64,000 nucleotides of DNA from contig NVXK01000016.1 of assembly GCA_002733905.1 (NCBI GenBank), positions 17,647 to 81,646 of the forward strand, in the 5' to 3' direction. The stretch's first letter is position 1. Each line of letters opens with the position of its first letter. Shown here piece by piece: positions 9,307-64,000 of this stretch. Both the position numbers and the translations under genes were made by a program. The DNA is from Robiginitomaculum sp. (lineage in GTDB: Bacteria > Pseudomonadota > Alphaproteobacteria > Caulobacterales > Maricaulaceae). The notes beneath the pieces were generated by a model. The model saw nothing but the letters and a program-made list of their open reading frames with translations, searched no databases and had not been told where the DNA came from.

Positions 9307-9345
9307 GGCCTGACCTTCTGTGGTATTTGGAAATTTGAATGAATT

Positions 9346-10262: not shown

Positions 10263-10372
10263 TTTCGTGCAATTTAACAAAATAACCCTATATAAAATAT
10301 GATGAACATGGTTTAAGCCATCATCACGAGTCGCGGAGCGGCACGTATTGCTATTATTTAAAAGGATTTGAT

Positions 10373-10594
10373 TTGGCAAAAGAAGAACTATTGGAATTCG
10401 AAGGCGAAGTTATGGAACTTCTCCCTAATGCGACATTCCGTGTAAAATTGGTTGGCAACGACCATGAGATCATTGCTCATACTGCAGGCAGAATGCGTAA
10501 AAACCGTATTCGCGTCCTAGCAGGGGATATTGTAACGGTTGAAATGACACCATATGACCTTTCCAAAGGCCGTATCACGTACCGCTTTAAATAA
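10373..10594 (+). CDS. infA: Translation initiation factor IF-1
   Basis: A 73-residue single OB-fold protein ([25 protein letters not shown] ... [35 protein letters not shown]), which covers the IF-1 family end to end. It binds the 30S A site during initiation. The start is TTG, with AAAAGG 6 to 10 bases upstream; no in-frame ATG exists at the N-terminus. The upstream ~110 bases contain an AT-rich CCCTATATAAAATATG that may hold its own promoter. Confidence 0.96.
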
Positions 10595-10595
10595 C

Positions 10596-12225: not shown

Positions 12226-12416
12226 TGAGCAAGGATAATTGTAAAATATGCAAAAAACCAATCATTGAGAAATATCATCCATTTTGCTCATCGCGGTGTA
12301 CAGATATTGATCTTGGGCGCTGGCTAAAAGGTGGATATGTCATTCCTGGAAATGACGGTGAAGCAGGAATACCTGCCAATGATATTGACCCAGATGACGA
12401 TTCTAAACTTTGGTAG
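12225..12416 (+). CDS. yacG: YacG-type zinc protein, DNA gyrase inhibitor
   Basis: A 63-residue protein with the family zinc ligands CKIC near the N-terminus and FCSSRC about 16 residues later, followed by DIDLGRWL. E. coli YacG binds GyrB and inhibits gyrase. The ATG overlaps the stop of the RNase E/G gene, the usual order in alphaproteobacteria. Its stop abuts the end of the convergent GDPD gene with a single base between them and no terminator. Confidence 0.93.
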   Translation: MSKDNCKICKKPIIEKYHPFCSSRCTDIDLGRWLKGGYVIPGNDGEAGIPANDIDPDDDSKLW

Positions 12417-12417
12417 T

Positions 12418-13248: not shown

Positions 13249-13262
13249 AATCGTCCATAACT

Positions 13263-13289
13263 GCCTGCTCCAATAAGATTGGAACAGGC
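13263..13289 (-). terminator. Stem-loop between the M3 peptidase and GDPD genes
   Basis: GCCTGcTCCAAT / ATTGGAaCAGGC with a three-base loop forms a 12-bp stem with one mismatch. No T tract follows on either strand, so it may be a Rho-dependent or processing/stability hairpin downstream of the M3 peptidase gene rather than a classical terminator. Confidence 0.45.
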
Positions 13290-13306
13290 ACGTTTGTGAA
13301 TATTAA

Positions 13307-15475: not shown

Positions 15476-15536
15476 TGTGCATCCCTAGAATTATTGTTGT
15501 TGTTATTATTATTGGCCCAATACTGAAAGTATAATA

Positions 15537-17855
15537 CTACTTATTGCTAGCTTTACAATACTCCTCACAACCAATTGATATGGGTGTGTAAATATGTGCG
15601 CGGTCACCACTATGTAGAGGCGCAGAAATATCTGCGCGTAGTTTTTCCATTCCCTCTAATTGCTCAAGTTTTAAACTTAAACTATCAATGATTGCCATAT
15701 TAAGTACTTGGTCAGCAGGGCCCTTGATCACGACATTATACGTATTTAGCGCGGCACCGCGAATGGCTACAGGGCGACGATATGCACTCACGCGGTAATC
15801 TGCGGCCATCTGTCCGTTGATTTCCACAGAGTACGGAATACTTTCCGCATCGAAACCAATATTAAGAGCGTAGCCCGCATTTGACGAACGAATGTTTAGG
15901 GTTAGCGTTCTGATGTCGCCTGAAACTATATTGTCAATAATTGTATAAACTGGTGGCAAGAATTTGGCGGGGCTTGCTTTTTTAGCAACGGCTTTTCCCC
16001 ATAATATATTCATCAAGCCATAAGGTTTAATGGATGTTTCAAAACCTGCAGCTTTCAGAAATACTTCGTCTTGTCGAGTAGATGTTTCGGATATCCAAGC
16101 CGCTTTACCTGTTTCATACCCCTGCACATAAACCAGATTGTGTGCACGGGGATGTTTTGTATTAAAGCCAGGCAGAGAGAAGGAAATAAAGGTACAGCAT
16201 ATCATCAAGACGCCAAACCCAATGCCAAGTTTTTCAGAAATTCTGCGCGGTGTGGCCACAAATATTGGCAAGAGAGTCATGCTAAACAAAATAAGCGGTA
16301 ATATGCGTATGGCAGATTGCTTGTAATGCACAATGACTTCGATAGCGATATAGTGATAAACCGCCATATAAAGCGCAAGGATAAGGCCTATGTGGGCCGC
16401 GACGCTTAGGCGCTCATGCTTGCGCCAGATATCAATCATAGCTCCCAACGTGATACCAAGGGCGGGTATCAAGAAAATATAACTCGCGCCGCTTACATAT
16501 ATAGACAATGCCAATGCTATGACTGAAAACACAATACCGTTCATAATAACAAGGGCATTATAATCGAGCCAGCGTTTCATAAGTTGCGTTACGCTCCAAC
16601 CGACAAATAGGCTTGCAAACAATATAGCAAGGCGTCCAGGCCAAGGTTGAGGGTGGTCTAAATAAAATAAATCAGGCCATCGTCCCAATGGAAATGATAA
16701 TAGCCAGCCCATAAGCGGGGAGGCGATCATAACAGCAATCACTGCACCGAGACTCCCGAGGATGAAGGTTAACCCAAAAGCCGTGTCCGTCTTACTAAAT
16801 GTGCGTGATTTGAATTTTGCAAACCCTAAAAGAAGGAGCGCCCAAATAGACAGGGGAAGGTTCAAGCCCGCATTCCAATGCAACAACACCTTGCCAAACA
16901 CATCAATATATGTGGCGTTTACTGTGCCGTTCAATGCTTCTAAGTCTGCATTGCCAAAGGCATGAACTGCCGCCAGCATATTATCACCATGATGTTGCAG
17001 GCTCGTTTTATCCAAATTCTCTACAGTGTCATGCTTGGAGTGATATAATGCGACATCTCCAGTAAATGCATAATTTAATCCCATGATTCCCTGTTTTTTA
17101 TAGATGGAATAGTCTGTATCATTTGGCAGGCGTGAATAAATTTCATAAGATAATGAAGTCGCCGCTGGGCGAGGGGTATGACGCGCATATCCTTTTATGA
17201 GTGCCAAATTACCGTCGCTAGTTTCAAACATTGAACTTGGGCCAGAAGCACCTCGTGATTCAAGGTTGATCACAAGCTTTACATTTTTTATCATTGTACC
17301 ACGGTCAGTAAATTCCTGTGCACCGCGAAGCCCACCTTCTTCACCATCGGTAATCAGAAACAAAATATCATTTTTAAGAGGAGGGGTGGTTTTAAGTATC
17401 CGTGCAATTTCTAGCATGGCAACAACGCCAACGCCGTCATCTGCGGCAGCAGGGCCAGCAGGTACGCTGTCATAATGAGATGTCAGCATAATCGTATTAT
17501 TGCTATCAGTATTGGTACCTTTCAACACAACAACAATATTTTCAATCTCGGTACAGCCTGGATAATGTAGAGTACATCCGAGCCCTTTTTGTATTTCGGG
17601 GGTATAGCCCATATCGACAAATTTTTTCTCGATAGCTTTGCGAATGCGTAGGTTTTCAAGGCTACCACTTGGATGGGCCTGATTGTTACCAACCAGAGAT
17701 TCCAGTTCAGCAAAGGCTCGCATTGCCGAAAACTGATCTGTTGGTGCATTGACAGATTTAGGGTGAGGCCCCTGTGTCAGTGAAGACAGTCCCCAAAATA
17801 CACAAAAAACCAAGAGCGAGAGTATAGTAAAATAACGGTATGTTGAATTTATCAT
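15537..17855 (-). CDS. Membrane-bound M28 family metallopeptidase
   Basis: The track starts at a TTG at 17870. ATG 17855, which has AAGAA upstream, is preferred and gives 772 residues. An N-terminal anchor (YFTILSLLVFCVFWGL) is followed by an M28 peptidase domain with metal ligands in TSHYDSVPAGPAAADDGVGV (about residues 125-144), then DGEEGGLRGAQEF and YHSKHDTVENL. The C-terminal half has about eight transmembrane helices and a final soluble beta domain. The layout resembles M28 proteins of the ER/Fxna-like type found in many proteobacteria. It is probably an envelope aminopeptidase; its substrate is unknown. Confidence 0.88.
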   Translation of the reverse strand: MINSTYRYFTILSLLVFCVFWGLSSLTQGPHPKSVNAPTDQFSAMRAFAELESLVGNNQAHPSGSLENLRIRKAIEKKFVDMGYTPEIQKGLGCTLHYPGCTEIENIVVVLKGTNTDSNNTIMLTSHYDSVPAGPAAADDGVGVVAMLEIARILKTTPPLKNDILFLITDGEEGGLRGAQEFTDRGTMIKNVKLVINLESRGASGPSSMFETSDGNLALIKGYARHTPRPAATSLSYEIYSRLPNDTDYSIYKKQGIMGLNYAFTGDVALYHSKHDTVENLDKTSLQHHGDNMLAAVHAFGNADLEALNGTVNATYIDVFGKVLLHWNAGLNLPLSIWALLLLGFAKFKSRTFSKTDTAFGLTFILGSLGAVIAVMIASPLMGWLLSFPLGRWPDLFYLDHPQPWPGRLAILFASLFVGWSVTQLMKRWLDYNALVIMNGIVFSVIALALSIYVSGASYIFLIPALGITLGAMIDIWRKHERLSVAAHIGLILALYMAVYHYIAIEVIVHYKQSAIRILPLILFSMTLLPIFVATPRRISEKLGIGFGVLMICCTFISFSLPGFNTKHPRAHNLVYVQGYETGKAAWISETSTRQDEVFLKAAGFETSIKPYGLMNILWGKAVAKKASPAKFLPPVYTIIDNIVSGDIRTLTLNIRSSNAGYALNIGFDAESIPYSVEINGQMAADYRVSAYRRPVAIRGAALNTYNVVIKGPADQVLNMAIIDSLSLKLEQLEGMEKLRADISAPLHSGDRAHIYTPISIGCEEYCKASNK

Positions 17856-17935
17856 GCATTTTCTTAACAAGATTATATAGTCTTGAAAAGGGGAATAAAT
17901 ATGGGTTATTTGTTAGTCGCAATAAAAACAAACGA

Positions 17936-18697
17936 TTAAGCAGATTTCTTTACATCAATCAGGGACAAATAGGCATAAGAAAACTTATAAACATCACCAG
18001 GCCACCGCGCACTCACGAGGTTGCGGTCAACAACGACAAACCCTTTTTGGGGTGATTTTTTTGTACCAAATACCGGCAAAAACGGCCCCGTTTTAAAATC
18101 TTTCTTTCGGGCTAAAACACTGCTGACTTCATCTTGTACTGTTTGTATATAGGTTTGATAGTGCAGCCCCATAGTCTTTTGCGTAAGCCTAAGCGCTATT
18201 TTTTCTTGAAAATTGTTAAGTCCTGTGACGCGATATCCATGCAATATCGACTGCCCGCTTTCATCAAGTGTGCGCGCCAATGCCAGCACGCCATGACAAA
18301 CTGATCCCACAGGGGCTTTGCGTGCAAAGAAATGGCGACATATGGAAAACACATGTTCAGATTCCAAATAGGGTTTCATGCCCTTTGCGTGTCCGCCCGG
18401 GAGTAGCAATCCGTCAAAGTCTTGCGGAGAGACATTTTGCCAAGAGAATGGGGAGTTGAAATGTGTATCTTTGCTCATTTCGTCATAAACACGTTTATTC
18501 GCAGGGCGAATTGCGAGTGAGCCTAACATGCCTGTTAACCCATCACCTGTGAGTGTAATCTTGTCACATTGTGCAATACTGCCATCTTGCGTCGCAAAAA
18601 AGACCTCATGACCAGCCTGCGTGAGTATTTGCCACGGTATTGCGGATTCCGTTGGATCAAAGTCTGTGTTGGGGAGAAGCATAAGAATTTTGGACAT
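17936..18697 (-). CDS. DJ-1/PfpI superfamily protein (Hsp31-like glyoxalase/deglycase)
   Basis: A 253-residue protein starting MSKILMLLPNTDFDPTESAIPW. The nucleophile elbow is GSVCHGVLALA (about residues 130-140), with the Cys-His of the type 1 glutamine-amidotransferase-like fold, and the oxyanion region is GLLLPGGHAKGM. The length and insertion pattern fit Hsp31/glyoxalase III-like proteins rather than the small PfpI type. A role in carbonyl stress or as a chaperone is family knowledge and not proven here. No signal peptide is seen. Confidence 0.85.
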   Translation of the reverse strand: MSKILMLLPNTDFDPTESAIPWQILTQAGHEVFFATQDGSIAQCDKITLTGDGLTGMLGSLAIRPANKRVYDEMSKDTHFNSPFSWQNVSPQDFDGLLLPGGHAKGMKPYLESEHVFSICRHFFARKAPVGSVCHGVLALARTLDESGQSILHGYRVTGLNNFQEKIALRLTQKTMGLHYQTYIQTVQDEVSSVLARKKDFKTGPFLPVFGTKKSPQKGFVVVDRNLVSARWPGDVYKFSYAYLSLIDVKKSA

Positions 18698-18732
18698 GAA
18701 TTCAGTGTAGCGATTCTATTTACTGAGGCAAA

Positions 18733-18760
18733 TAAAAAACCCTCCGAAGAAGGCTTTTTA
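18733..18760 (-). terminator. Terminator downstream of the glycine-zipper gene
   Basis: Read on the minus strand, AAAAAG-CCTTC-TTC-GGAGG-GTTTTTT forms a short GC stem flanked by A and T runs. It would end the glycine-zipper transcript and may also act on the + strand. Nearby, TAGTC(A/T)GCTATATTTAGT is repeated twice around the stop codon (about 18774-18810). Confidence 0.6.
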
Positions 18761-18805
18761 CAAAAGTAAAATTAGTCAGCTATATTTAGTTTTAGTCTGC
18801 TATAT

Positions 18806-19522
18806 TTAGTGATGTGTATTGCAGGTATATTTTCCGTGATAGTGACGCTGGCTATGCCTACGTGATACAGGTCGGGAATGCCCGTGGTTTTGATAACGGG
18901 TATTGTAAACCTGACGACCCGAATATGTTGGCGCGCGATAGCTGGTCGTCCTAATGTTGCGTGTCGAATATACAGGTGCAGGGTAAGTCGTTGTGCTGAT
19001 GGGGTAAGTGACCGTATTCGTAGAATATGTTGTCCCGTGCCTTACACCTCCACGATTAGCCCCATAAGTTGGATTGTTATATACTGGATGTGTGGAATAG
19101 GTAATTTGGTCTGGATATTGCTGTATTGTCGAGTATTGAGTACTTCCATATTGTCCATTCCCGTATGTAGGTTGTGTGCTTGAATAACCACCAGAGCCAT
19201 ATGTAGTGGAGGGGGTGGAAACATAAACGGGATCACAATCAACAGTTTTATCAGCAATGCCTGCACCTGCAAGCCCGCCTAAAACCGCGCCAATTGCGCT
19301 ACCTTCAGTACGGGCGCCATTTCCCGACACCTGAGACCCAATGACACCGCCAGCAATCGCACCGATTACACCGCCCAAGAGTTTCTTGTCACTCTCTTTG
19401 CTCTTACATTTATCATGAGCATTATATTGGGATGGTTGATAATATTGTGTTTGGGCAAGAGAAATACTTGGTACCAAAGCTGTAATCGCAAGCAGTCCAA
19501 ACGTTTGATATAATTTTTTCAT
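18806..19522 (-). CDS. Glycine-zipper 2TM domain outer-membrane-type protein
   Basis: The track begins at 19669. The ATG at 19522, with GGAG just upstream (TGGAGTTACAAT), gives 238 residues with a signal peptide MKKLYQTFGLLAITALVPSISLAQ. Residues about 45-85 contain a glycine-zipper (LLGGVIGAIAGGVIGSQVSGNG and GSAIGAVLGGLAGAGIA), the Rick_17kDa/SlyB-like membrane motif. The rest is a Tyr/Ser/Thr/Pro-rich low-complexity repeat (TTYP, YGSTQY) ending in a His-rich tail. It is probably exported to the envelope. The function is unknown, and the low-complexity tail is unusual for the family. Confidence 0.75.
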   Translation of the reverse strand: MKKLYQTFGLLAITALVPSISLAQTQYYQPSQYNAHDKCKSKESDKKLLGGVIGAIAGGVIGSQVSGNGARTEGSAIGAVLGGLAGAGIADKTVDCDPVYVSTPSTTYGSGGYSSTQPTYGNGQYGSTQYSTIQQYPDQITYSTHPVYNNPTYGANRGGVRHGTTYSTNTVTYPISTTTYPAPVYSTRNIRTTSYRAPTYSGRQVYNTRYQNHGHSRPVSRRHSQRHYHGKYTCNTHH

Positions 19523-51949: not shown

Positions 51950-51968
51950 ACTTGACACAGTGTCAAGT
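51950..51968. promoter_or_regulatory. Perfect TetR-type operator between DUF4345 and tetR genes
   Basis: ACTTGACAC-A-GTGTCAAGT is a perfect 9+9 palindrome. It contains a TTGACA -35 box on each strand, and a second TTGACA on + (about 51968-51973) has TAGTTT 17 bases on. A repressor bound here would cover both divergent promoters. Confidence 0.75.
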
Positions 51969-52586: not shown

Positions 52587-53020
52587 TTTTGGAGGCTTTG
52601 GATTAAGGAGTCTGAAGTGGCCTTGAAGAGTTCCTCAGGCATGTAAAAGAGAAATTAAAAGCATCGAACCTCACCAAGTTTAAGTAACTTTGGCTGTAGC
52701 CAATGCTGTTTAGATTAGCTTTATCGACAAAAGGGAGCATTGGTCATTGATCTCGTTAACTTTGACGCGTCACATGAATTCTGACAACAATACTGTCGGT
52801 AGTCTCAATCGATGCGACTCATTAGACATTCTGGAAGCCACCATTGATGAGGCAGGGGGCCTCACTAATGGTGAATACTGGCATCTATATTTCTAGGGGT
52901 ACATCAGTATACTAACATATAAATTGCATATTAACACTGATGATGTTGGTATGCTAAAATGACGTTAGAATTAAACAAACACCCTGTACTTAATAGGTTG
53001 TTCGTTGAGTTATTAGAAGA
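52587..53020. other. Intergenic region holding repeat copy A
   Basis: There is no supported gene. The ORF 52959-53177 runs into the antisense of the FG-GAP gene and is a shadow. The main content is repeat copy A at about 52759-52882. Around 52712-52735, TTAGCTTTATCGACAAAAG only loosely resembles the complement of the transposon-end repeat seen further right. Confidence 0.45.
52759..52882 (+). repeat. Repeat copy A of an undescribed element with hairpin
   Basis: This copy runs from TTTGACGCG to ATACTGGCA and matches copy B at 54538-54708 in the same orientation, with about 12 differences in the last 80 bases. It ends in the hairpin CACCATTGATGAGGC / GCCTCACTAATGGTG. The stem bases differ from copy B by paired changes (GAGGC/GCCTC here, GAGAC/GTCTC there). 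Confidence 0.7.
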
Positions 53021-54283
53021 CTATTTTTGGATATCAAATACATATACCGAACCTGATTCATTGCCATTGTCGTCGTCGCGACTTGCGCTAACAATTCCAG
53101 TTTCGTCCGAGAGTGCCACGCTCCATCCGAAGACATCACCCGTTGCGCCATCAGCGGCAGTTAGCTTAGCCTTATAGACCCAGACCTTGTCCTTGCGCTT
53201 AAACAAATATGCTGATCCCGAATTTTCGCCCTTGTCGTCTCGAAACATGGCGCCCACTAACGCCGTATCGCCCATAAGAGCAACACTACGACCAAATCTG
53301 TCGTCTGCAACGCCGTCAGGAGCCGTCAGTTTCTCCTGCTGAGCCCAACTTGTCCCAGACCTAACAAATACATAGGCTGACCCTGCGTCAACACCCATTA
53401 TATCGTCGTCATCTCTTCGGGCTGAGATCAAAGCGGTATCGCCGGAAAGAGCGACCCTTACGCCGAAAATGTCAGTCTCACTACCGTCTGCAGCGGTTAG
53501 CTTGGCTTGTTGACTCCAGTTATCACCAGACCGCGTGTAAACATAAACCGCGCCTGCATTGGGGGCAATCTCATCATGAAGATCTGCGCCCACTAAGATG
53601 GTGTCATCGGATAATGCTACGCTGATACCGAATAGATCACCGGCGGCACCATCGTTTGCCGTAAGCTTGGCTTGTTGGTGCCAACTCGTCCCAATGCGGG
53701 TGAACACATAAACCGAGCCTGTGTTCTCGCCGTTGTCATCATCACGTGGCGCTCCGATTATAACCGTATTACCAGACAGAGCGAGGCTCTGACCAAAGGC
53801 GTCATCTTTTGCTCCGTCAGCCGCGGTAATCTTTGTCTGATGATTCCAGATATTTTCGGAACGAATATATACATGGGCGGAACCAGAGTTCTCGCCTTTA
53901 TCGTCATCACGCATAGCACCTATGACTATCGTGTTGCCAGAAAGTACAACATTACCGCCAAAAGTATCGTTCGGCGCGCCGTCTATGGCAGTAAGCTTGG
54001 CCTGTTGGCGCCAAATTTTTCCAGAGCGAATGAAAACATATGCAGACCCTGCGTCAACACCCAATATCTGGTCGTCATCTTTAAAGGAGCCAATAACTGC
54101 AGTGTCGTCTGAGAGCGCTACACTATAGCCAAAAAAATCCTCGGAGGCACCGTCATTAGCGGTCAGCTTCTGCTGCGAGTACGGCGTAGCCGCACAGGCT
54201 GTCAAAGCCATAACGATAAAGGGAAGTACAACGATTAAACTAAAGCGACTTTGCTTCGAATACTGATTGAAAATAGTTGTCAT
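53021..54283 (-). CDS. FG-GAP repeat lipoprotein, seven-bladed beta-propeller
   Basis: A 420-residue protein with a lipoprotein signal (VLPFIVMALTACAATP). It is followed by seven tandem repeats of about 54 residues with the pattern KLTA-x-DGA-x2-D-x-FG-x2-VALS-x-DT...GS-x-YVF...SW-x-QQ. Seven FG-GAP units would close one integrin-like propeller. The repeats are highly alike, suggesting recent internal duplication. It is probably surface- or periplasm-exposed and adhesive or ligand-binding, but nothing defines the ligand. It stands alone between two copies of the repeat described here. Confidence 0.85.
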   Translation of the reverse strand: MTTIFNQYSKQSRFSLIVVLPFIVMALTACAATPYSQQKLTANDGASEDFFGYSVALSDDTAVIGSFKDDDQILGVDAGSAYVFIRSGKIWRQQAKLTAIDGAPNDTFGGNVVLSGNTIVIGAMRDDDKGENSGSAHVYIRSENIWNHQTKITAADGAKDDAFGQSLALSGNTVIIGAPRDDDNGENTGSVYVFTRIGTSWHQQAKLTANDGAAGDLFGISVALSDDTILVGADLHDEIAPNAGAVYVYTRSGDNWSQQAKLTAADGSETDIFGVRVALSGDTALISARRDDDDIMGVDAGSAYVFVRSGTSWAQQEKLTAPDGVADDRFGRSVALMGDTALVGAMFRDDKGENSGSAYLFKRKDKVWVYKAKLTAADGATGDVFGWSVALSDETGIVSASRDDDNGNESGSVYVFDIQK

Positions 54284-54771
54284 GTTTTTTCCTGCCCGAG
54301 AGAATGAAGCTTACTTGGGATTGTGAATTTCCCTATAAAACGCACACCGTATAGTCTCGAACCTGTTCAGGGCAAATACAAAACGACACCTTTCGTAATT
54401 GTAATGTGGTCAAATCAGCTACATGCATTAACGTCTGCAATGAGGTTTTAGGATCTGAAATCTCAAAGAAAGCCCGAGCCAAATTGTAAGCTCTATAAGT
54501 TACTCAAGTGGTGTAGGAGAGGTAGAGTCTAGGGAACATTGACGTTGAGTCTTATGAATTGTGATGTCGGTAATCTCAATTGATGCGACTCAAACTCTAA
54601 GTATAACGTCAATCTAATTTTTAATGTTCTCAATTGATGAGACTCATTAGATATTCTGGGAGCCACCATTAATGAGACAAGAAGTCTCACTAATGGTGAA
54701 CACCGACAGGAACGGCCGCTTTATTAGCCAACAACATGTTGATGTTAAAACAGCAAATCTATTAGTAGCGC
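54284..54771. other. Upstream region of the FG-GAP gene, with repeat copy B
   Basis: No gene is seen. The left part should hold the minus-strand promoter of the FG-GAP gene, the middle shows nothing clear, and the right part is repeat copy B (54538-54708), after which the hipA stop region begins. Confidence 0.4.
54538..54708 (+). repeat. Repeat copy B, with internal partial duplication
   Basis: This copy aligns with copy A (52759-52882). The unit TCTCAATTGATG-x-GACTCA appears twice here, at about 54574-54592 and 54628-54647, separated by ~40 extra bases. Its hairpin is CACCATTAATGAGAC / GTCTCACTAATGGTG. It has the same orientation as copy A, so the two are direct repeats about 1.75 kb apart that bracket the FG-GAP gene. 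Confidence 0.7.
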
Positions 54772-56040
54772 TTAAATTTTGAAGTCATTTTGAAGTCTGC
54801 CCCAATGAGCTCTGAGCTTTTCGTTGTGTTTTGCATCCATGGGCAAGGTCTTCAATGCTTCTGGCCATAAAGAGCGGGCTTTATCCATTGTATCGTCAAT
54901 ATGGGGCTTGATAGCTCGCCAGGGAATACCAGAATTGTTAGCCCATGCCTGAAAATGTTTTTCTGTCACTGAATACCATTCTTTTGTTTTACCAAGATTT
55001 AAAGCATATTTTGTTTCATCGTCGAAATAAACATTGGTAGTGACAATATCATAGGCAGGGGAGAGCCTTGGTGTAATTTGGTCTGGATAGTATAGACTCC
55101 AGTTTTTCAAATGGGCATCACCATTTGCCAGTAAGATATTTACAAGTAGGCGCCTGGCAAATTGCTGCGCGTCTGCTAGACCGTCACCCGAAAATTCATA
55201 AAGTACTCTACCGATTTGCTCATAATTTGCAGAATCATATTTGTTACGCGGGTCTTTCACTAAGACCTGCGCAAAGTCTTCCATGTGAATTCTTGTATTC
55301 CCGTCACGATCAAACCGTTTAATGGCAAATGCCAGTTCTTCATCGGGAAGGTTTATTGACGGCAAATTGTCCAATCGTGTGCGCTCTATCAGTTTAATCT
55401 CCGGAATATCTACACCTGCAAGTTCTGCCAATGTCATAGCTGTGAACTCATTGAGAGGGACGTGTTTATGTTGGGTGGATGGAGTTTTGATGATCCAATC
55501 ACCAAGTTCACCGTTTTCGCTAAAGTTATATCGGCTACCCATTGCCTTCATAGAAAACTTCATTTGAACACCGGCCAATGAAAACTTGGGTGTTTGGTCC
55601 ATTTCTCCAAATTTTATGGCTTGGGCTGGCCCATGTGTATTCATGATGCTCGTTGGGACATCTTGTGGATCCATTGGGGTCGCCACTAAAGCTCCGGGGA
55701 GATCTCGACCAAGATGTGAAAACATCCTAAACTCGTTATCAATATGAATTTTTAATTCCTGAGAAAGCAAGTCTCGCGGGCTACCTTCGGGAAGAAGGTT
55801 TGATAAAACTGGATGTAGTTTTTGTTTTTTTGCCCATGTTTGTGACATGAGCTCTTCCGACTTGGGAAAGTTTGGATGTGTGACAAGGCTGAAGGTTGGC
55901 CGCCCAGGATTATTTTTATATTCTGGCGCAAAACTCAAAACATTGCGCCCGCTTTGAAAGCCGGCTAAATACCCGACGAGCTGGCCATGTAAGGTAAGCT
56001 TGAGAACGCTCACTTTATCTATTTGGTCATTTGAGCTCAT
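54772..56040 (-). CDS. hipA: HipA-type serine/threonine kinase toxin
   Basis: A 422-residue HipA family kinase. The N-terminal HipA_N part is VLKLTLHGQLVGYLAGFQSGRNVLSF and the ATP-binding part has FSLAGVQMKFSM and WIIKTPSTQHKHVPLNEFTAMTLAELAGV. The catalytic region is LLANGDAHLKNWSLYYPDQ (catalytic Asp and Asn) followed by SPAYDIV. Such kinases phosphorylate glutamyl-tRNA synthetase or related targets and cause growth arrest. It is intact and full length, and overlaps the hipB-like antitoxin gene by four bases. Confidence 0.9.
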   Translation of the reverse strand: MSSNDQIDKVSVLKLTLHGQLVGYLAGFQSGRNVLSFAPEYKNNPGRPTFSLVTHPNFPKSEELMSQTWAKKQKLHPVLSNLLPEGSPRDLLSQELKIHIDNEFRMFSHLGRDLPGALVATPMDPQDVPTSIMNTHGPAQAIKFGEMDQTPKFSLAGVQMKFSMKAMGSRYNFSENGELGDWIIKTPSTQHKHVPLNEFTAMTLAELAGVDIPEIKLIERTRLDNLPSINLPDEELAFAIKRFDRDGNTRIHMEDFAQVLVKDPRNKYDSANYEQIGRVLYEFSGDGLADAQQFARRLLVNILLANGDAHLKNWSLYYPDQITPRLSPAYDIVTTNVYFDDETKYALNLGKTKEWYSVTEKHFQAWANNSGIPWRAIKPHIDDTMDKARSLWPEALKTLPMDAKHNEKLRAHWGRLQNDFKI

Positions 56041-56366
56041 TCCTCATCTCCTAATAGGTTTTTCCAAGGATCATTGGCAAGTTGACCTTTCTCACTCTTT
56101 TTGTTGGCAATCTGTTTAAGGGTGTCGAGAGAAAGCGTATCATCTTCAAGGACTTTCTTTATAAGGCTTAGCTTGTCATTGGGGACCAATATCAATTCAC
56201 TCTTTAGCCCTGTGGCCAGAAGTGTTAGGGTCTCGAGCCTGGGGTTGCCTCTGGATTCTAAGTGCTGGTATTGTTTACGTGACATACCGATACGAAGCTT
56301 CATATCTTTTTGCTTAAGCCCTAAAGCCAATCGGCGAATTTTTAGTTGTTCAAGTATATTTTTCAT
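56037..56366 (-). CDS. hipB: HipB-type HTH antitoxin
   Basis: The track begins at 56474. ATG 56366, with AGGGG about 6 bases upstream, gives 109 residues. The N-terminal XRE HTH is QLKIRRLALGLKQKDMKLRIGMSRKQYQHLESRGNPRL (about residues 5-43), and the C-terminal tail should bind HipA. It would neutralise HipA and repress the operon. The dyad AATAAG-GGG-CTTATT at 56406-56420 lies just upstream and is a candidate operator. Confidence 0.85.
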   Translation of the reverse strand: MKNILEQLKIRRLALGLKQKDMKLRIGMSRKQYQHLESRGNPRLETLTLLATGLKSELILVPNDKLSLIKKVLEDDTLSLDTLKQIANKKSEKGQLANDPWKNLLGDEE

Positions 56367-56405
56367 AATAACCCCTATATACGACCATTTTCCTAAAAAG
56401 CAATG

Positions 56406-56420
56406 AATAAGGGGCTTATT
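56406..56420. promoter_or_regulatory. Candidate hipBA operator
   Basis: AATAAG-GGG-CTTATT is a perfect 6+6 dyad 40 bases upstream of the hipB start. A related half-site AATAACCCC overlaps the start region (about 56367). HipB-type proteins normally bind such dyads. Confidence 0.45.
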
Positions 56421-56504
56421 ATAAATAAAGGAACATATGAATGGGTGTTGTAATAATGCTCTAATTTGGTCCATGATTGGAGTTTTGAGCCGTATTGAAT
56501 TTAT

Positions 56505-56559
56505 TTTGCGACACTAAAAGCTAATTGACGCACGTCACTAAAAGCTAATTGTTGCACGG
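56505..56559 (+). repeat. Transposon-end array 1 (two 24-bp direct repeats)
   Basis: TTTGCG is followed by ACACTAAAAGCTAATTGACGCACG and TCACTAAAAGCTAATTGTTGCACGG. The same arrangement with period 24 occurs at 61341-61394 in the same orientation, in front of tniA. Multiple tandem transposase-binding sites inside an end are typical of Tn7/Tn5053-type elements. This copy lies between hipBA and the CBASS operon, with no tniA following it. Confidence 0.7.
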
Positions 56560-57080
56560 TTCTGAAATTAAACAATATAAATATATATGGTGGACAATCT
56601 AGAAATTTTAGTAGCAGGACAAGCCTGTTAACGGCGTCATGATTATTTTTGGAACGCTGATACATATGCTAACAATACCAGCTTACATGATCAAACTATG
56701 TAAAACCTGCGGGATGAATATCAGCGGAACTTAAGGCGCATTAACGATGGGGTTATATATACCCAAAAAAGTGAACAATTAAACTGAAAAAACCCCATGT
56801 TGGCAGTCTTATTAATGGAGGCTAATACCCTACGTACTTTCGTGCCCAAATCGTGGAAAAAGCACGGTGACCTTGTCGTTCAAAGTGGTGGTTCGATCAC
56901 TTATTTGGCCGATATTATGCTTCAATAACTCATTGTATTAAAGGAATTTACTTTGCTTTTCCCTAATATCTGGCCGGTTGGTTGGCCGATCTATTTGAAC
57001 CCAACATGGCATACGAGCAACTATCTATGAAAATGAACAAAGGAGACATTAACAATAGTAAAGAATAGAACAAGTTGTAT
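56560..57080. other. Region between end array 1 and the CBASS operon
   Basis: No supported gene is seen. A 37-codon ORF (56815-56928, MEANTLRTFVPKSWKKHGDLVV) may be a remnant, but I do not recognise it. ATGGGGTT / AACCCCAT (about 56748-56797) forms an 8-bp stem with a long loop. There is no clear terminator after the capV-like gene, whose transcript would run into this stretch. Confidence 0.4.
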
Positions 57081-58076
57081 CTAAGAGTGGTGCCGTTCGT
57101 ACTGGAGAACTTGGGTTTCAAAGAAATGGAGCATGTCTGATTTATTATCTGTGAATGCCTTCTTACCTAATGACGGAAGCCGTGATGCAGCTTCCTTATA
57201 ATCATCCATGTCAATTTCCACTTTAATAGTGGGATCAACTCTTAAAACATTATTTCTTCCAATTAGTAAACCTGCTTGTCCCAATGCATTATGAGATTGA
57301 AGATGAGATGCAAATCGTTGTGCATTTGCTGCCCAGTATGTCGCACCTTTATTTGCGATTTTTTCATCAAAGGTTAGAGGTGTATGACCGCAACCAATGG
57401 ACAAAACACTAATTTTATGCCTCTGAACTTGGTAACAAGCTAATGCATCTACAACAGCTGCCATAATAGGATTGTTGATAAACAAGCCTCCGTCCAAGAA
57501 AATCTCTTCACTTTCCCTATAGCCACCGAGGAAAAGAGGCGCAGCGGAAGTTTCAAGAGCAACAGATGCCATTTCCCGTGCGTGATCTTTTTTATAGTCT
57601 GGATGATGTGCAGTTTTTCGCATTACCGGTTCGCCTTCATTATATAGAGACGGGATGCATAACCGAGTATTGGCTTCGCCAAACTTTCTTTTTCCAAGTG
57701 TTTCACGGACAATACTTTCAAGAGGTCCGCGATCATGAATGGTAGAGAAGGGGGAAAGTAGAACTTTCCCTTTTTTTGGAAAAATCTCTGAACCACGATC
57801 TAAATACATTGAAAGCAAATCTCGAGCTTTTACCCCAGCGGCTAGCCCTATAGCCAAAATACCTCCAGTTGAAGTGCCCGTAATCATGTCGAAATAGGAA
57901 CTTATTGGCTTTCCATTGCATAACTCCACTTCAATTTCAGCTAATATTTGTGCAGGTAAAATACCTTTAATCCCACCACCGTCGATAGATAAAATTTTAA
58001 ATTTTTTATCCTGCGGCCAAGGCAATTGGTGACGTTGTTGTAATAAGGTTCCTGATGACCTTCTGTCGCTCTGCAT
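57081..58076 (-). CDS. capV: CapV-type patatin-like phospholipase, CBASS effector
   Basis: A 331-residue patatin-like phospholipase. The motifs are complete: oxyanion ILSIDGGGIKGILPAQIL (about residues 28-45), nucleophile GTSTGGILAIG (Ser about residue 70) and the catalytic Asp in IFLDGGLFINNP (about residue 195). In CBASS such effectors are switched on by the cyclic oligonucleotide made by the neighbouring nucleotidyltransferase and degrade the inner membrane of infected cells. The start has an ideal AGGAGA site and overlaps the E2 gene by 71 bases. No membrane helix is present. Confidence 0.9.
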   Translation of the reverse strand: MQSDRRSSGTLLQQRHQLPWPQDKKFKILSIDGGGIKGILPAQILAEIEVELCNGKPISSYFDMITGTSTGGILAIGLAAGVKARDLLSMYLDRGSEIFPKKGKVLLSPFSTIHDRGPLESIVRETLGKRKFGEANTRLCIPSLYNEGEPVMRKTAHHPDYKKDHAREMASVALETSAAPLFLGGYRESEEIFLDGGLFINNPIMAAVVDALACYQVQRHKISVLSIGCGHTPLTFDEKIANKGATYWAANAQRFASHLQSHNALGQAGLLIGRNNVLRVDPTIKVEIDMDDYKEAASRLPSLGKKAFTDNKSDMLHFFETQVLQYERHHS

Positions 58077-58539
58077 ATTCTATCTCCTGATTTATTTTAT
58101 GTGTTTTACCTCCGCCATACCAAATGCCGGTGACCTGCCAAATTTCGTAAAACTGTAGCCACTCACATGCGTCTGGGATTGTTGTCTCAGAAATAAAATG
58201 ATCCCAGTTCCAATCTCCACTTCCTGGTAGGCATATGCACAGAATAGGGCGACGATCTGGTTCGTCTTGTCTTGCAGGGTACACATGAGGAAAGTGGGCT
58301 AGTTGATAATCCGTCATTTTTAGCAAAGAGGGATGCCAAAACCTCACATGTGGAATATATTGAAAAAAATCTTGTTTGTATTTTGATTGGGGTAACTCAT
58401 ACTCTATTTTGAGAAGGTAATATTTTTCTGATGGTTTTACCCAGCCTTGCCACACACCAATTTTTTCTTTTTGAACTACCATTTTAAAGTTTGGAAAGTC
58501 CCTGAGTAATCGATTGTTTTGTTCAAGGATTGATAACAT
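58006..58539 (-). CDS. CBASS E2-like conjugating protein (short type II)
   Basis: A 177-residue protein with the CBASS E2 pattern. A beta-sheet region has WQGWVKPSEKYYLLKIEYELP, then HVRFWHPSL, and the active-site region ILCICLPGSGDWNWDHF (candidate Cys101 or Cys103). The C-terminal EWLQFYEIWQVTGIWYGGGKTH is highly characteristic. In short type II CBASS this E2-only protein acts without the E1 and JAB partners of Cap2/Cap3 and modifies or primes the nucleotidyltransferase. It lies between the CD-NTase gene (2-base gap) and capV. Confidence 0.85.
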   Translation of the reverse strand: MLSILEQNNRLLRDFPNFKMVVQKEKIGVWQGWVKPSEKYYLLKIEYELPQSKYKQDFFQYIPHVRFWHPSLLKMTDYQLAHFPHVYPARQDEPDRRPILCICLPGSGDWNWDHFISETTIPDACEWLQFYEIWQVTGIWYGGGKTHKINQEIEYAERQKVIRNLITTTSPIALAAG

Positions 58540-58541
58540 TA

Positions 58542-59753
58542 TTATTGGCTTCCAAAGTTTGTTCGCTTAGGAACGGATGGGTACACATTAGGAGCCACCG
58601 ATACTGAGCCTCCAACTCCAACAATGGTCCTACCTGCGGCGCGAGCTTCACCAAGTCTTTTAGAGTAGGTTTTAATGGCATGTGTTGCAGCAGTTTCGCC
58701 AAATAACCGGACAAGGATCTCGTTTTGTTTTTCAACATCCGTAGTGCTACGCAACACGTTAATATCCATTATCAAACTATCCAAGTCTTTACGGAAAGTA
58801 GATTGATCGGAATTATTTGAAGGCCATCGATCTGTAAAACAGTCAGGGCGATATGATACATTTCTTACGTCTAGGAGTACACCTGTGCGTTCACACTGTA
58901 AAATAGTATCCCTAATATGCGTCGCAACATTCAATAGCTCTTGGCTAAGGCTAGGGGATAAAATTGGCCCCGCCTCTAATGCGAGTCCGGCTTTTATTAC
59001 GGATGGCGGCTTGCGTTTTCGCGAAGATTTATTTGAACGGTAAGAAACATCGCGCGCTCGCTTTATCAGCTGTAATGCCACTATGCGCGGAGATTTTCTA
59101 TCAAGACTTTCAAATTCTGGAAAATCCTCAGTTTCAGCTTTTGCCAATAAAGCCAGACGATGGCTGCCAAAACGTTCCATGAAGATATCGTTTGTACCAA
59201 CTCGGGATTTAAAGTGTTTTGTAAACCCCTTTGGATTAACATCCTTATGGTAAGATTCTCGGGTTTCTTTTTTCCAGTGGAAGAGTTGGGATACGCGTTC
59301 AGTAAGGATGTTTGCTCGTCGAACTACTGGCATAACGTCTAGTGTGTGACCATCCGCATAAGTTATAGTTATGCAACGTGAGTTTCGCTTTACCATTTTA
59401 TGGTAACGTGACCCAGGTCCGCGATCTAGCGAACGTTCAAGAATTGTTAGCACCCATTCAGGATCAGAATTTTCAGGTAAATCAAGTTCAATAACTACAT
59501 CAATATCATGCTTATGGGCTTTAATTTTTCCCAAAATTGGAGCGCCTATACCAAAGGAACCAGATGGGTAAATGATTATCACTTTACCCTCTAAGAGTGA
59601 TCCTGAGCCATCTACATAAGAGGAAACCGCTTCGTAGTTTTGTGTTGCTTCCTTATAATCAGAAGGCGTGAGCTGTATTTTAAATGCTACGTCCATCAAT
59701 AACTGGTCTGCAATACTTGCATAAGTCGAGAAGTCGAAATTTTCAAAGCCCAT
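58542..59753 (-). CDS. CBASS CD-NTase (cyclic oligonucleotide synthase)
   Basis: A 403-residue cGAS/DncV-like nucleotidyltransferase. The active site is complete: VIIIYPSGSFGIGAPI with the G-S (about residues 56-71), HKHDIDVVIEL carrying the first two Asp (about residues 80-90), and ITYADGHTLDVMPVV with the third (about residue 136). It should make a cyclic di- or trinucleotide on phage infection. The C-terminus is flexible (VGVGGSVSVAPNVYPSVPKRTNFGSQ), the end that E2-type proteins act on in type II CBASS. AAGGAGAG precedes the ATG. The clade cannot be assigned by eye. Confidence 0.88.
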   Translation of the reverse strand: MGFENFDFSTYASIADQLLMDVAFKIQLTPSDYKEATQNYEAVSSYVDGSGSLLEGKVIIIYPSGSFGIGAPILGKIKAHKHDIDVVIELDLPENSDPEWVLTILERSLDRGPGSRYHKMVKRNSRCITITYADGHTLDVMPVVRRANILTERVSQLFHWKKETRESYHKDVNPKGFTKHFKSRVGTNDIFMERFGSHRLALLAKAETEDFPEFESLDRKSPRIVALQLIKRARDVSYRSNKSSRKRKPPSVIKAGLALEAGPILSPSLSQELLNVATHIRDTILQCERTGVLLDVRNVSYRPDCFTDRWPSNNSDQSTFRKDLDSLIMDINVLRSTTDVEKQNEILVRLFGETAATHAIKTYSKRLGEARAAGRTIVGVGGSVSVAPNVYPSVPKRTNFGSQ

Positions 59754-59881
59754 GTGGCTCTCCTTTATATGTATGCCCTTGCTTACATGCTATTATCCTG
59801 ACGCTTTGGAGTTTTACCGCTCCAACGCCTTGTCTGTTAAAAGCAAATGATAAGAGTTAGTAACTCGACTCACATTTCTTA

Positions 59882-59897
59882 CATACGAAAACGTATG
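59882..59897. promoter_or_regulatory. CBASS operator O1 downstream of candidate CBASS promoter
   Basis: CATACG-AAAA-CGTATG is a perfect 6+6 dyad. On the minus strand TTGACA (59934-59929) and TGTATG, 17 bases on, form a candidate promoter whose start site falls at this dyad, so a bound repressor would block CBASS transcription. A second dyad GCTGTGT / ACACAGC (59897-59918) lies next to it. Confidence 0.65.
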
Positions 59898-59944
59898 CTG
59901 TGTAACATACAACACAGCCCTTGCTATCTGTCAACCCCTCGTGG

Positions 59945-59956
59945 TACGATTTCGTA
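59945..59956. promoter_or_regulatory. Operator O2 upstream of the XRE regulator gene
   Basis: TACGA-TT-TCGTA reads on the minus strand as ATACGAAATCGTAC, a near-copy of O1's ATACGAAAACGTAT. It overlaps a plausible -10 (TACGAT) with TTGCTA 18 bases upstream for the divergent regulator gene. Two matching sites in one divergent gap indicate one protein controlling both directions. Confidence 0.6.
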
Positions 59957-60003
59957 TATGAGTAATTTTATTCTAATAAATGAGTATTGAAGGGGATATC
60001 TAT

Positions 60004-60333
60004 ATGTCATTTGCGGTTAGGTTAAAAAAATATCGAGTAGCTCAAAAGCTATCATTGCAAAGTTTAGCGGATTTAGTGGAGGTTTCAAAAGCTCACATTT
60101 GGGATCTAGAAACAGAAAGGGCGAAAAACCCATCATTGGAAGTGCTAAAAAAACTATCTACACATTTAAAAATACCAATTGCTACATTAATTGGAGAGAA
60201 TCCAGAAAAAGCAGAAGGTATTGCTCAATCAGAGTCTGTAGTTATGTATCGTGATCTGCAAGGGCTGAATGAACAAGATCGAGAAACTATAAAAATAATG
60301 ATGGAGCGGCTCAAAAAACGAACAGATATTTAA
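60004..60333 (+). CDS. XRE family regulator, CapH-like
   Basis: ATG 60004, with GAAGGGGAT upstream, is preferred to the track start at 59980 and gives 109 residues. The HTH is RLKKYRVAQKLSLQSLADLVEVSKAHIWDLETERAKNPS (about residues 6-45), followed by LIGENPEKAEG and a C-terminal helix (DRETIKIMMERLKKR). It is divergent from the CBASS operon and directly followed by an ImmA/IrrE peptidase gene. In known CBASS loci a CapH repressor is cleaved by a CapP peptidase when DNA damage occurs; the same pairing is inferred here. Confidence 0.85.
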   Translation: MSFAVRLKKYRVAQKLSLQSLADLVEVSKAHIWDLETERAKNPSLEVLKKLSTHLKIPIATLIGENPEKAEGIAQSESVVMYRDLQGLNEQDRETIKIMMERLKKRTDI

Positions 60334-60338
60334 CCGAT

Positions 60339-61241
60339 ATGACTTTATCGATTTCCAGAATGGACTTGGACGGTAACTGTTCACCAATAGCTTTGGTAAC
60401 AAAAATTCTAAAACTTGAACCAAACTTAAAAATCCCTATTCCAATTGAAGAGTTAGCATACAAACTAGACATCAACTCAATTCAGGAACTTACTACTGCT
60501 GGATACGAAGGGGGATTAGTTACTGATGAAGCCCGTAGCTCTGGTGATATTTTAATTAAAAAAGGAATGTATCATCAACGCCGCCGTTTTACTATTGGGC
60601 ACGAGCTGGCTCATTTCCTGATTTCGTATCATAAACCTTCAGCCCCTAATGGTTTTTTGTGTGACAAGACTGCGATGAACAACTGGGACCTTAAGGAACA
60701 AATTAAGGCGAGAAAAATGGAAGCACAAGCAAATCAGTTTGCCTCTCTTATTCTTATACCTCCACCACAATTGAGAAAAATTTTAAATCGAGACCGTTTC
60801 ACTTACCTTGATAGAATGTTTGAAATTCATGAGTTTTTTGATGTAAGTAAAGAAGCCGCTGCTCGATCATTTGTAGAATACAACCCTGAATGCGTATCAA
60901 TTCTAATTTGTAAAGACGGAAAATTATTGCGGAAATATAGTAAAAGAGATTTTCCGTGGATAAAATTGAATAAAGGCCAAGCTATCCCTGATATATCAGC
61001 ATTGTATACTCATCCTGTAACAACTGATAAAACCAGCTCTCTTCAGGAGACAATGGCTAAAGAATGGATTGATGTAAAATTTGGAAGCCGTACACCAAAA
61101 ATGTATGAACAAGTGGTGCATCAAAATTATGGGTATTCCATGATTATGCTGAAAACAATTGCCTTTGCTGACATGGATTACGATCCAGAAGAAAACCTGA
61201 CTTCAAAGCAGAGACTCGCGAAACGAGCACAAAATAGGTAA
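60339..61241 (+). CDS. ImmA/IrrE family metallopeptidase, CapP-like
   Basis: A 300-residue protein. The gluzincin motif is RRFTIGHELAHFLISYH (HELAH, about residue 88), and the third ligand region is KMEAQANQFASLILIPPPQL (about residues 127-146), the standard ImmA/IrrE pattern. The C-terminal ~110 residues are a further domain. The gene begins six bases after the XRE gene. Its proposed job is to cleave the regulator and release CBASS expression in response to a stress signal. It could equally form an independent XRE/ImmA module; position next to CBASS favours the first. Confidence 0.85.
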   Translation: MTLSISRMDLDGNCSPIALVTKILKLEPNLKIPIPIEELAYKLDINSIQELTTAGYEGGLVTDEARSSGDILIKKGMYHQRRRFTIGHELAHFLISYHKPSAPNGFLCDKTAMNNWDLKEQIKARKMEAQANQFASLILIPPPQLRKILNRDRFTYLDRMFEIHEFFDVSKEAAARSFVEYNPECVSILICKDGKLLRKYSKRDFPWIKLNKGQAIPDISALYTHPVTTDKTSSLQETMAKEWIDVKFGSRTPKMYEQVVHQNYGYSMIMLKTIAFADMDYDPEENLTSKQRLAKRAQNR

Positions 61242-61641
61242 CGTTACATTGGATACTCACATGGTAAACCAAGTTTGACCTTATCGATAGACTTTAACAA
61301 AACCTTGTCGAAAATGAGCGGTTTCAACCCGTGTTAATTTTTTGCGACACTAAAAGCTAAAAACCGCACAACACTAAAAGCTAATTTTTGCACATAAATA
61401 AAATCAGAAAATGCATTCTAGTTTTTAGCAATACATATTTTTTAGAAATAATTGTTGGCTTCAACATTTGGATTTATTGTATATCTATATTGATAAGGTA
61501 AAGTTTAACTCGACCAAACAGTAAGGCATTAATGAATCAAACTCGCTGATACATAGTGGTATTTAGTCACCATGTTTACTAACTATTAAGTAAACATCTT
61601 CTTTTTCAGAGTTTTCATATTATGCGGATAGTCAACCGATT
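61242..61641. other. Intergenic region with transposon end array 2 and tniA leader
   Basis: There is no gene in these 400 bases. The left 90 bases are the tail of the CapP-like gene's unit and show no terminator. The end array lies at 61341-61394, possibly starting from TGTTAATTTTTTGCG at 61332. The right ~245 bases up to tniA are AT-rich and should hold the tniA promoter. Confidence 0.5.
61341..61394 (+). repeat. Transposon-end array 2 (two 24-bp direct repeats) before tniA
   Basis: TTTGCG is followed by ACACTAAAAGCTAAAAACCGCACA and ACACTAAAAGCTAATTTTTGCACA. The consensus ACACTAAAAGCTAA-n5-GCAC is shared with array 1. Lying about 250 bases before a TniA-type transposase gene that reads away from it, this is the expected place for the tniA-proximal end of the element. 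Confidence 0.75.
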
Positions 61642-63285
61642 ATGACTATTGACGTAAATGACATTCAAGATGTTCCCACAGAAAACTGGACAGTGGCTCA
61701 AGAATGGGCCCGTCATCTTTGGCCATTATTGAATTACAATTCCATCCCATACTACATAGTGGAGGATGTTTGCTTTCATATGGAATGCAGTAGGGCGACT
61801 TTTTTTCGTAAACTTGCAAAATTCAAAAAACACCAAACCGCCAGTAGCTTGTTGCCCAATACGCGTGGCATTAAAAAAGAAGATACAAAAATTGATCCAA
61901 ATATCGAGCAGGTCATAACCGATAATATTAGGAAGTATTTTTTGAAGCGTCCCAAGCAAACTATCCAATATGTATGGGAGGCAACCGTAATGGATTGCCA
62001 TACGCGCGAATTATGCCCCCCAGGATATTCTACTGTACTCAGAAGGAGCAAACTTATTTCACGAAAGGATAGACTTATGGCGCACAACGGTTCGAGGGCC
62101 TACAGATCGAAAAACTCATCTGCGCGGGGATCTTTGGAGGCCGATTATCCACTTCAAAAAGTGCAAATTGATCATACAAAAGCTGATATCATAATTGTTG
62201 ATACTGTATCTAGAGAGCCTATAGGTAGGCCAATATTTACGGTAGCGATTGATATCTACAGTCGTATGATTTTGGGGTTCCATCTTGATATCATTGGGCC
62301 AAGCTCTTGGAACGTTTCCGAAGTACTAACCCAATTAGTTTTCAAAAAAGATGAATGGCTTAACTTTCGAAACATTCCACATGAATGGCCATCCTACGGA
62401 ATTCCAGAGTGTCTAATGCTCGACAATGGAAAAGATTTTCGCTCAAAGGCTATGACTATAGGGGCAGGGGAATATGGTATTCAGTTAGACTACCGGCCTC
62501 CCGGAAAAGCTCATTTTGGCGGGCATGTTGAACGCGTCATTGGTACATTTATGAAAAGGTTACAGTCAGTACCTGGCACAACATTTTCAAATATAGCTAA
62601 TAAAGGAGATTACGACAGTGCGGGTAAAGCAGTTATGACGCTTGCCGAGTTAGAGATGCTATTTTCCGAGTTTATATTGGGACGGTATCATAACCGTCGC
62701 CATAGATCCCTAAATGCTACACCGTTAGAAAAGTGGAACGAAGCCCTTGAAAACGGATTTTCCCCGCGACTATGTCATCAAAACCCACTTAAGTTTAAAA
62801 TAGATTTCTTAAAGTCAGAGAGCAGGGTTGTATCCCGAGAAGGTATTGAGTTTAAAACCAAAAAATACTGGAGTGATATCACTCAATCCTTGTATGACAA
62901 TGGCACAAAACGAGTTCAAGTATTTCCGTTCCATAGTGATATTTCTAAGGTTCTCATAAGGGAAACCTCGGGGCAGATACATATTGTACATTCAAAAAAC
63001 GTACGCACACCTCATATTAGCTGGTCAGAGTTTAATGAGGCTAAGAAATTATCAAAGCGGTTCTCTGGATTGTCGGCAGAACAGATTTCAGATCAAATTT
63101 CACGAGAGCGAAAACTTATTAAGAAAAGTCAAAAACTGACCAATGCTCAACGCAGGCAGAATGAAATTGATCGTTCACAATCGGCTCATCCAATACGCAA
63201 AGCTGGAGGCGGGGAGCACAAGCCAAAGAATAAAAAAGTATCTGTTGATTTCAAATTTCAACGGCTGAATGTGATTGGGGACTAA
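61642..63285 (+). CDS. tniA: TniA/TnsB-like DDE transposase
   Basis: A 547-residue Mu/Tn7-type transposase. An N-terminal HTH region has IPYYIVEDVCFHMECSRATFFRKLAKFKKH. The rve catalytic core is VQIDHTKADIIIVDT (first Asp), PECLMLDNGKDFRSKAM (second Asp) and GGHVERVIGTFMKRLQSVPGT (Glu), spaced as in TniA. A C-terminal beta-barrel and a basic tail follow. It catalyses cutting and joining of the element's ends with the ATPase TniB. It reads away from end array 2, and its stop is one base before the tniB ATG. Confidence 0.92.
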   Translation: MTIDVNDIQDVPTENWTVAQEWARHLWPLLNYNSIPYYIVEDVCFHMECSRATFFRKLAKFKKHQTASSLLPNTRGIKKEDTKIDPNIEQVITDNIRKYFLKRPKQTIQYVWEATVMDCHTRELCPPGYSTVLRRSKLISRKDRLMAHNGSRAYRSKNSSARGSLEADYPLQKVQIDHTKADIIIVDTVSREPIGRPIFTVAIDIYSRMILGFHLDIIGPSSWNVSEVLTQLVFKKDEWLNFRNIPHEWPSYGIPECLMLDNGKDFRSKAMTIGAGEYGIQLDYRPPGKAHFGGHVERVIGTFMKRLQSVPGTTFSNIANKGDYDSAGKAVMTLAELEMLFSEFILGRYHNRRHRSLNATPLEKWNEALENGFSPRLCHQNPLKFKIDFLKSESRVVSREGIEFKTKKYWSDITQSLYDNGTKRVQVFPFHSDISKVLIRETSGQIHIVHSKNVRTPHISWSEFNEAKKLSKRFSGLSAEQISDQISRERKLIKKSQKLTNAQRRQNEIDRSQSAHPIRKAGGGEHKPKNKKVSVDFKFQRLNVIGD

Positions 63286-63286
63286 A

Positions 63287-63967
63287 ATGGGTGAAATTGT
63301 ATTTAGCGAATATTTTGAAGATCGTTTTGTTGTGCACGCAAAGGCAAGTGATATTTTGCGTGAAATGGAACATATATTAAGACTGTCAAAACTCAATAAA
63401 AGACCGAAAAACTTACTGATTACTGCCGATGCGGGTTGCGGAAAAACGGCTGTTGCTGACACTTTCATAAAATCAGCTAGAGCAAACTTGGATGATACAA
63501 ACTCTCCTACAACAGCTCAAATAGTCGGGATGCAGATGCCTGCTATGCCAACCGAGAGTGACATTATGCTGGAGTTACTTTCAAAAATGGGTGTAGATTT
63601 TGTTGGGAAAAAATCTCAAGCACACCTTCTATCCGTATTGCGAAACATCAGTGGTGCGGCAGGACTAAAGCTTATCGTGATTGATGAGTTTCATAATCTC
63701 ATGGCAACATCAAAAATGAAAATTTTATCATCTTTGAATTTTTTGAAATGGATAGGAAATGAACTCAAAGTCCCAATAATTGCATTGGGTACAAATAGCT
63801 GTCAGTTATTATTACCATACGACAATCAGTTTAGTGAGCGTTACAAACAAGCATTTTTACCAGTGTGGAGTGATGGGGATGACTTTAGGAACTTTATATT
63901 TTGTCAACGGCGGAGTAAAATCAGTCCACGTGGCGGCGTAAAAGTCTACCAATGTAGCTACGCTTAA
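63287..63967 (+). pseudogene. tniB: TniB-like transposition ATPase, truncated by an IS
   Basis: The track starts at a TTG at 63275. ATG 63287, with GGGGA upstream, is preferred. It is an AAA+ ATPase with Walker A NLLITADAGCGKTAVADTF (about residues 42-60) and Walker B LKLIVIDEFHNLM. Near residue 205, after AFLPVWSDGDDFRNFIF, the TniB match stops, and the last 21 residues (CQRRSKISPRGG...) are coded by the end of an insertion sequence starting at 63902. Full TniB proteins have roughly 280-300 residues, so the C-terminal lid region is lost and the transposition operon is probably dead. Confidence 0.8.
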
Positions 63968-64000
63968 ATAATATAACAAAGGGGCCAATTGGCCCCTTTG
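63902..64000. mobile_element. End of an IS21-family-like insertion sequence
   Basis: TGTCAACGGCGGAGTAAAAT is followed by a related unit GGCGGCGTAAAAGTCTACC, the multiple GGCG-x-AGTAAAA terminal repeats typical of IS21-family ends. The element begins inside tniB and runs out of the window; istA/istB are not visible. At 63980-63999 a palindrome AAAGGGGCC-AATT-GGCCCCTTT probably ends the IS transcript coming from the right. Confidence 0.65.
63978..64000 (-). terminator. Strong palindrome inside the IS end, probable terminator
   Basis: CAAAGGGGCC-AATT-GGCCCCTTTG is a perfect GC-rich stem. On the minus strand it is followed by TTATATTATTT. It would end an IS gene (istB) entering from the right and so protect the chromosome from IS read-through. 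Confidence 0.5.

Follow-up and report, generated by a model that had tools for sequence, protein, structure and literature searches.

Two direct repeats that lie on either side of a single FG-GAP gene in the 64-kb stretch of Robiginitomaculum DNA analysed here (the window) are probably degenerate, non-autonomous miniature elements, either MITE-like or made of fused left and right ends. The layout of their termini suggests descent from a TniA/TniB transposon belonging to the Tn5053/Tn7-like elements. They are most likely worn leftovers bordering an island of defence genes, and not a new selected RNA or a gene cassette.

The repeats and the gene between them

Copy A is a candidate miniature element of 90 bp (positions 52794–52883) and copy B one of 144 bp (54565–54708), both given in the plus-strand direction. 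Both start with TGTCGGTA, after which comes a site of 19 nt, TCTCAATYGATGMGACTCA. Copy A runs from TGTCGGTA to TACTGGCA and has a degenerate right terminus; copy B runs from TGTCGGTA to ACCGACA, the inverted form of its start, with both termini intact. The strong core of the repeat (52803–52883 versus 54628–54708) is ungapped, with 84% identity over 81 nt. In copy A, a putative transposase-binding site, TCTCAATCGATGCGACTCA, occupies 52803–52821, followed by the hairpin at 52839–52873, whose arms may be interpreted as a pair of inverted sequences resembling binding sites, CACCATTGATGAGGC and, on the minus strand, CACCATTAGTGAGGC. Copy B contains two such putative sites, at 54574–54592 and 54628–54646, and its hairpin spans 54664–54698, the 3′ arm of which forms, on the minus strand, the right terminal site (TGTCGGTGTTCACCATTAGTGAGAC, read from 54708). 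The two sites of copy B, in which TCTCAATTGATGMGACTCA occurs at positions 54574 and 54628, constitute the partial duplication (TCTCAATTGATG-x-GACTCA) that an earlier note on this DNA had described. Copy A matches copy B less 54 bp, precisely the interval at which the direct 19-nt sites of copy B are spaced. Within the window, the hairpin and 19-nt patterns match only copies A and B, with 0 matches expected by chance.

A weaker homology between the copies extends leftward from TGT for some 35 nt (p about 0.001 against shuffles), and accounts for the lengths of 125 and 170 bp previously ascribed to the repeats. The left flank of copy A (52757–52793), homologous to that of copy B (54535–54564), has a 9-nt insertion beside TGT and a further inverted site-like sequence; in the left flank of copy B, an inverted site-like sequence is found at 54546–54564 on the minus strand. 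The right flanks of A and B lack homology (p = 0.57), and the similarity stops at the ACA/GCA terminus.

The gene between the copies (53021–54283, minus strand) encodes a protein of 420 aa with seven FG-GAP_2 matches, plausibly a lipoprotein from its N-terminus (a signal-like stretch and LTAC). It is present in 3 of 13 congeners at 83–86% and, at 55–75%, in a single genus belonging to a different family. In the three congeners, the gene is found in other gene neighbourhoods, and the repeats are absent. Synteny with a tetR relative in one genome (G006) yielded no empty site. Elsewhere in the Robiginitomaculum genome (L034, 5496–5655), there is a second copy (75%) of the first 38 codons of the FG-GAP gene and its upstream region, without the gene body. 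To the left of copy A, in the intergenic region that a tetR gene shares with a divergently oriented DUF4345 gene, lies a palindrome, TTGACACAGTGTCAA (51952–51966), which is likely to be a TetR operator. The idea that the repeats are themselves operators of the adjacent tetR gene was dropped because this palindrome, by eye, sits in the tetR intergenic region.

No third copy of the repeat was found in the genome; the only two copies are at one place, within 2 kb. A covariance model of the repeat, run on this genome, on 137 family genomes and on 398 order genomes, recovered only the known copies. Blastn searches of plasmids and phages with the repeats gave no match, and the exact repeat patterns were absent from viral contigs. 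In about 85,000 genomes, a 17-base hairpin pattern had 18 matches, 0 of them with the rest of the repeat, which is nothing beyond chance. The earlier note had said that its view would fail if there were no further copies anywhere and every relative carried the whole segment at the same position. The first of these was found in everything searched; the second was not, since the three congeners carry the gene elsewhere and without the repeats.

Terminal sequences

The left end of copy B reads TGTCGGTAATCTCAATTGATGCGACT; the right end, taken on the opposite strand, reads TGTCGGTGTTCACCATTAGTGAGACT. Anchored at TGTCGGT, the two termini are mutually inverted, with 18 of 26 positions identical (p = 0.004). 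When the two ends of copy A were compared, they were not significantly alike (p = 0.59), its right end being degenerate. A terminus pattern, TGTCGG-N5-9-MATYNRTGMGA, written after A and B had been seen, has exactly three matches in the genome, namely the left end of A and the left and right ends of B, and 0 for the reversed control; four other genomes of the genus have 1 match each.

TniA relatives on alphaproteobacterial plasmids (33–39% identity) have termini of the same layout, TGTCG...TGMGA. The element on Paroceanicella profunda pD4M1E (L095) has the termini TGTCGCGTAGCCCTTAATTGTGAGA and TGTCGCGTTGCCCTTAATTCTGAGA and a perfect 5-bp target duplication (CCGCG/CCGCG), and another (L107) has a target duplication, CCGGC, and weaker termini. 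A terminus from Sulfitobacter sp. OXR-159 (L105), TGTCGGATGACCGGAATTGATGAGA, has TGTCGG and AATTGATG in common with copy B, at a spacing that differs by one base. This Sulfitobacter locus (8986–19500) consists of three tniA-tniB elements in tandem and in the same orientation, in which 5 bp separate a right end from the left end that follows, and each left end has several TGAGAC sites. In nine TniA-transposon termini from outside the window, TGMGA (once TGTGA) is at positions 21–25; in A and B it is at 20–24. With a matrix built from the outside termini alone, 8 of the top 200 matches in the window fell inside the two repeats versus 0.94 expected, although this count includes homologous copies, so that the matches are not independent. 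Unanchored alignment of copy A or B with the left ends of L094 and L095 was not significant alone (p = 0.06–0.14), and no close autonomous partner of the copies was found.

Set beside the usual description of a MITE, the copies are short (90 and 144 bp) and have no transposase gene inside, and their termini resemble those of autonomous elements in the nine-termini layout and the matrix enrichment. TGT...ACA terminal inverted repeats are present in copy B only, and the copies are two at one place rather than multiple and dispersed. A 5-bp target duplication is absent from copy A (AATAC/TCTAT), from copy B (TGTGA/GGAAC) and from the unit as a whole (AATAC/GGAAC); it could have been lost if the insertion is old.

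Origin of the pair and nature of the hairpin

In the origin proposed here, the transposase would bind at the termini, TGTCGGTA...(T)ACCGACA, and at the TCTCAATYGATGMGACTCA-type motifs, and the hairpin would arise from adjacent direct and inverted binding sites, its symmetry serving DNA recognition and not RNA. The A form may have been derived from the B form by a deletion of 54 bp between the direct 19-nt sites. Between the copies, the FG-GAP gene would be a passenger, beside an island with HipAB-like, CBASS and tniAB genes. We infer that TniA bound the motifs, that the copies moved in the past, and that the FG-GAP gene was carried along with them.

The island begins with HipA-like and HTH (HipB-like) genes (54772–56474, minus strand), followed by CBASS genes for a patatin effector, an E2-like protein and a CD-NTase (57081–59753, minus strand). 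A CapH-like regulator and a CapP-like M78 peptidase are encoded at 59980–61241 on the plus strand. The CBASS genes with these regulators (57081–61241) adjoin the gene for a TniA/TnsB-type DDE transposase (61642–63285, plus strand), which is followed by that for TniB (PF05621; 63275–63967, plus strand), in which an IS21-type end takes the place of the 3′ part at the end of the contig. At 63896–64000, the end of tniB passes into sequence that matches the end of an IS21-type element, and the contig stops there. The tniA-tniB pair is 7 kb from the repeats, beyond the HipAB-like and CBASS genes; the repeats adjoin a defence-gene region linked to a Tni-type transposase. The HipA protein matches congeners at 41% identity at best, over short stretches, so this neighbourhood is not common within the genus as far as tested.

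A second direct-repeat pair (56504–56576 and 61340–61412, 78%), consisting of two 24-bp units, ACACTAAAAGCTAA, has one member upstream of the HipB-like gene and one upstream of tniA. It may represent further transposon ends, as we first assumed, although a similar four-unit array precedes a Fic gene on a Saccharobesus plasmid (L098). With these ACACTAAAAGCTAA boxes just upstream of the resident tniA, copies A and B may not be the ends of the resident TniA itself.

It is conceivable, if rather improbable, that the pair is a Tni/Tn7-type counterpart of the TIME-COMP composites described below, in which paired miniature TniA-type ends captured and moved the single FG-GAP gene, with the transposase possibly supplied in trans from a Tni element such as that of the neighbouring island. 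The anatomy fits this reading; the FG-GAP gene occurs elsewhere without the repeats, and the outer ends of the unit have no duplication (AATAC/GGAAC). Should the pair still be mobile, it would constitute a small device for gene capture within the Tn5053/Tn7 group.

The homology to the left of TGT is not expected of two independent insertions, and suggests a local duplication or a larger ancestral unit. We considered the possibility that a worn transposon end, or some other palindromic intergenic stretch, was copied together with its left flank when the FG-GAP gene arrived, neither copy having moved by itself. The shared 35 nt, the lack of target duplications and the presence of only two copies, both within 2 kb, are consistent with such a segmental duplication. 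However, the right edges of the homology end at the ACA/GCA terminus, as for an element boundary, and the terminal symmetry of copy B and its match to outside transposon ends would be left unexplained; this origin is unlikely. A doubtful alternative, and a still weaker one, is that two full-length Tni transposons inserted in tandem and are represented by A and B as solo left ends, the remainder of the first having been deleted. The copies do point in the same direction, as do the tandem elements of Sulfitobacter, and an island bearing tniAB lies to the right, but each copy also bears, at a distance of 90 or 144 bp, an inverted terminus of right type (degenerate in A) and so seems to hold both ends, and a matching right end was not found elsewhere in the assembly.

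The hairpin stems are as previously described, GAGGC/GCCTC in one copy and GAGAC/GTCTC in the other. The earlier note had taken compensated pairs, in the plural, as proof of a selected fold. There are 13 differences between A and B in 90 aligned positions, all of them transitions, and exactly 1 of the 22 pairs is changed on both sides, while 4 are changed on one side. At least one doubly changed pair arose in 37% of trials with 13 differences placed at random (P = 0.37), a test that, with two sequences only, has little power either way. The folding z-scores for the two hairpins were −2.6 and −5.8 on the plus strand and −3.4 and −6.3 on the minus strand; the minus strand thus folds as well as or better than the plus strand, and there is no strand preference. 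A search of Rfam with the repeats, at E values up to 10, gave no match. With a single compensated pair at this P value and folding on either strand, the hairpin is real as a DNA palindrome, and nothing here shows selection on it as RNA. The terminus layout, like that of Tni/Tn7-type transposon ends, allows it to be interpreted as two neighbouring binding sites, one direct and one inverted.

The least probable reading is the one originally put forward, a structured RNA or recombination-site hairpin that is under selection and makes up a cassette unit together with the FG-GAP gene: it draws on the stable plus-strand hairpins, the one fully compensated pair and the direct copies on both sides of the gene, but one such pair is within chance expectation, folding is equally good on the minus strand, Rfam has no match, further copies were not found, and congeners have the gene without the repeats. 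What holds of that proposal is that the repeats are specific and that repeat, gene and repeat together resemble a mobile unit. The covarying, selected hairpin is not supported, in view of the one pair, the negative Rfam search, the lack of strand preference and the Tni/Tn7-type end layout. A terminator or retron-like interpretation was dropped as well, since no T-run follows the hairpin and there is no reverse transcriptase among the annotated genes of the window. A hairpin built of inverted transposase-binding sites can be mistaken for a selected RNA fold.

Comparison with known systems

As probable remnants of TniA-type ends, the copies resemble the ends of Tn5053/Tn402-type (Tni) and Tn7-like transposons, such as the P. 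profunda pD4M1E element. Like these, they have a TGTCG terminus, a TGMGA core some 20 bp further in, multiple repeated sites at each end, which are inverted between the two ends, and tniA-tniB nearby. Unlike them, they have no transposase between the ends, the TGMGA is one base nearer the terminus, there is no target duplication, and the resident tniB is broken. Several TnsB sites per transposon end have been described for a type V-K CAST, the gene set of which is grouped with TniA, TniB and TniQ of Tn5053 (PMC9527255).

Integron gene cassettes with attC likewise have hairpin sites as direct repeats on both sides of a single gene; in contrast to these, no cassette array was seen here, the attC consensus was not seen by eye, and the sites resemble transposon termini. 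In Acinetobacter johnsonii, 439-bp MITEs flank a Tn402-like integron with blaPER-1, and their movement is argued from the insertion site (PMC3934969). There, too, a MITE pair bounds a passenger segment, although the size differs and the likeness considered here is one of arrangement.

The closest described arrangement is that of TIME and TIME-COMP, Tn3-derived miniature elements and their composites (PMC4133298, PMC13367494). In both cases, short non-autonomous elements with transposon-type inverted ends occur as two copies flanking passenger DNA, here in the same orientation. The pair described here differs in that its ends are of Tni type and not Tn3 type, that the copies are 84% identical rather than near-identical, that 5-bp duplications are absent, and that its mobility is putative.
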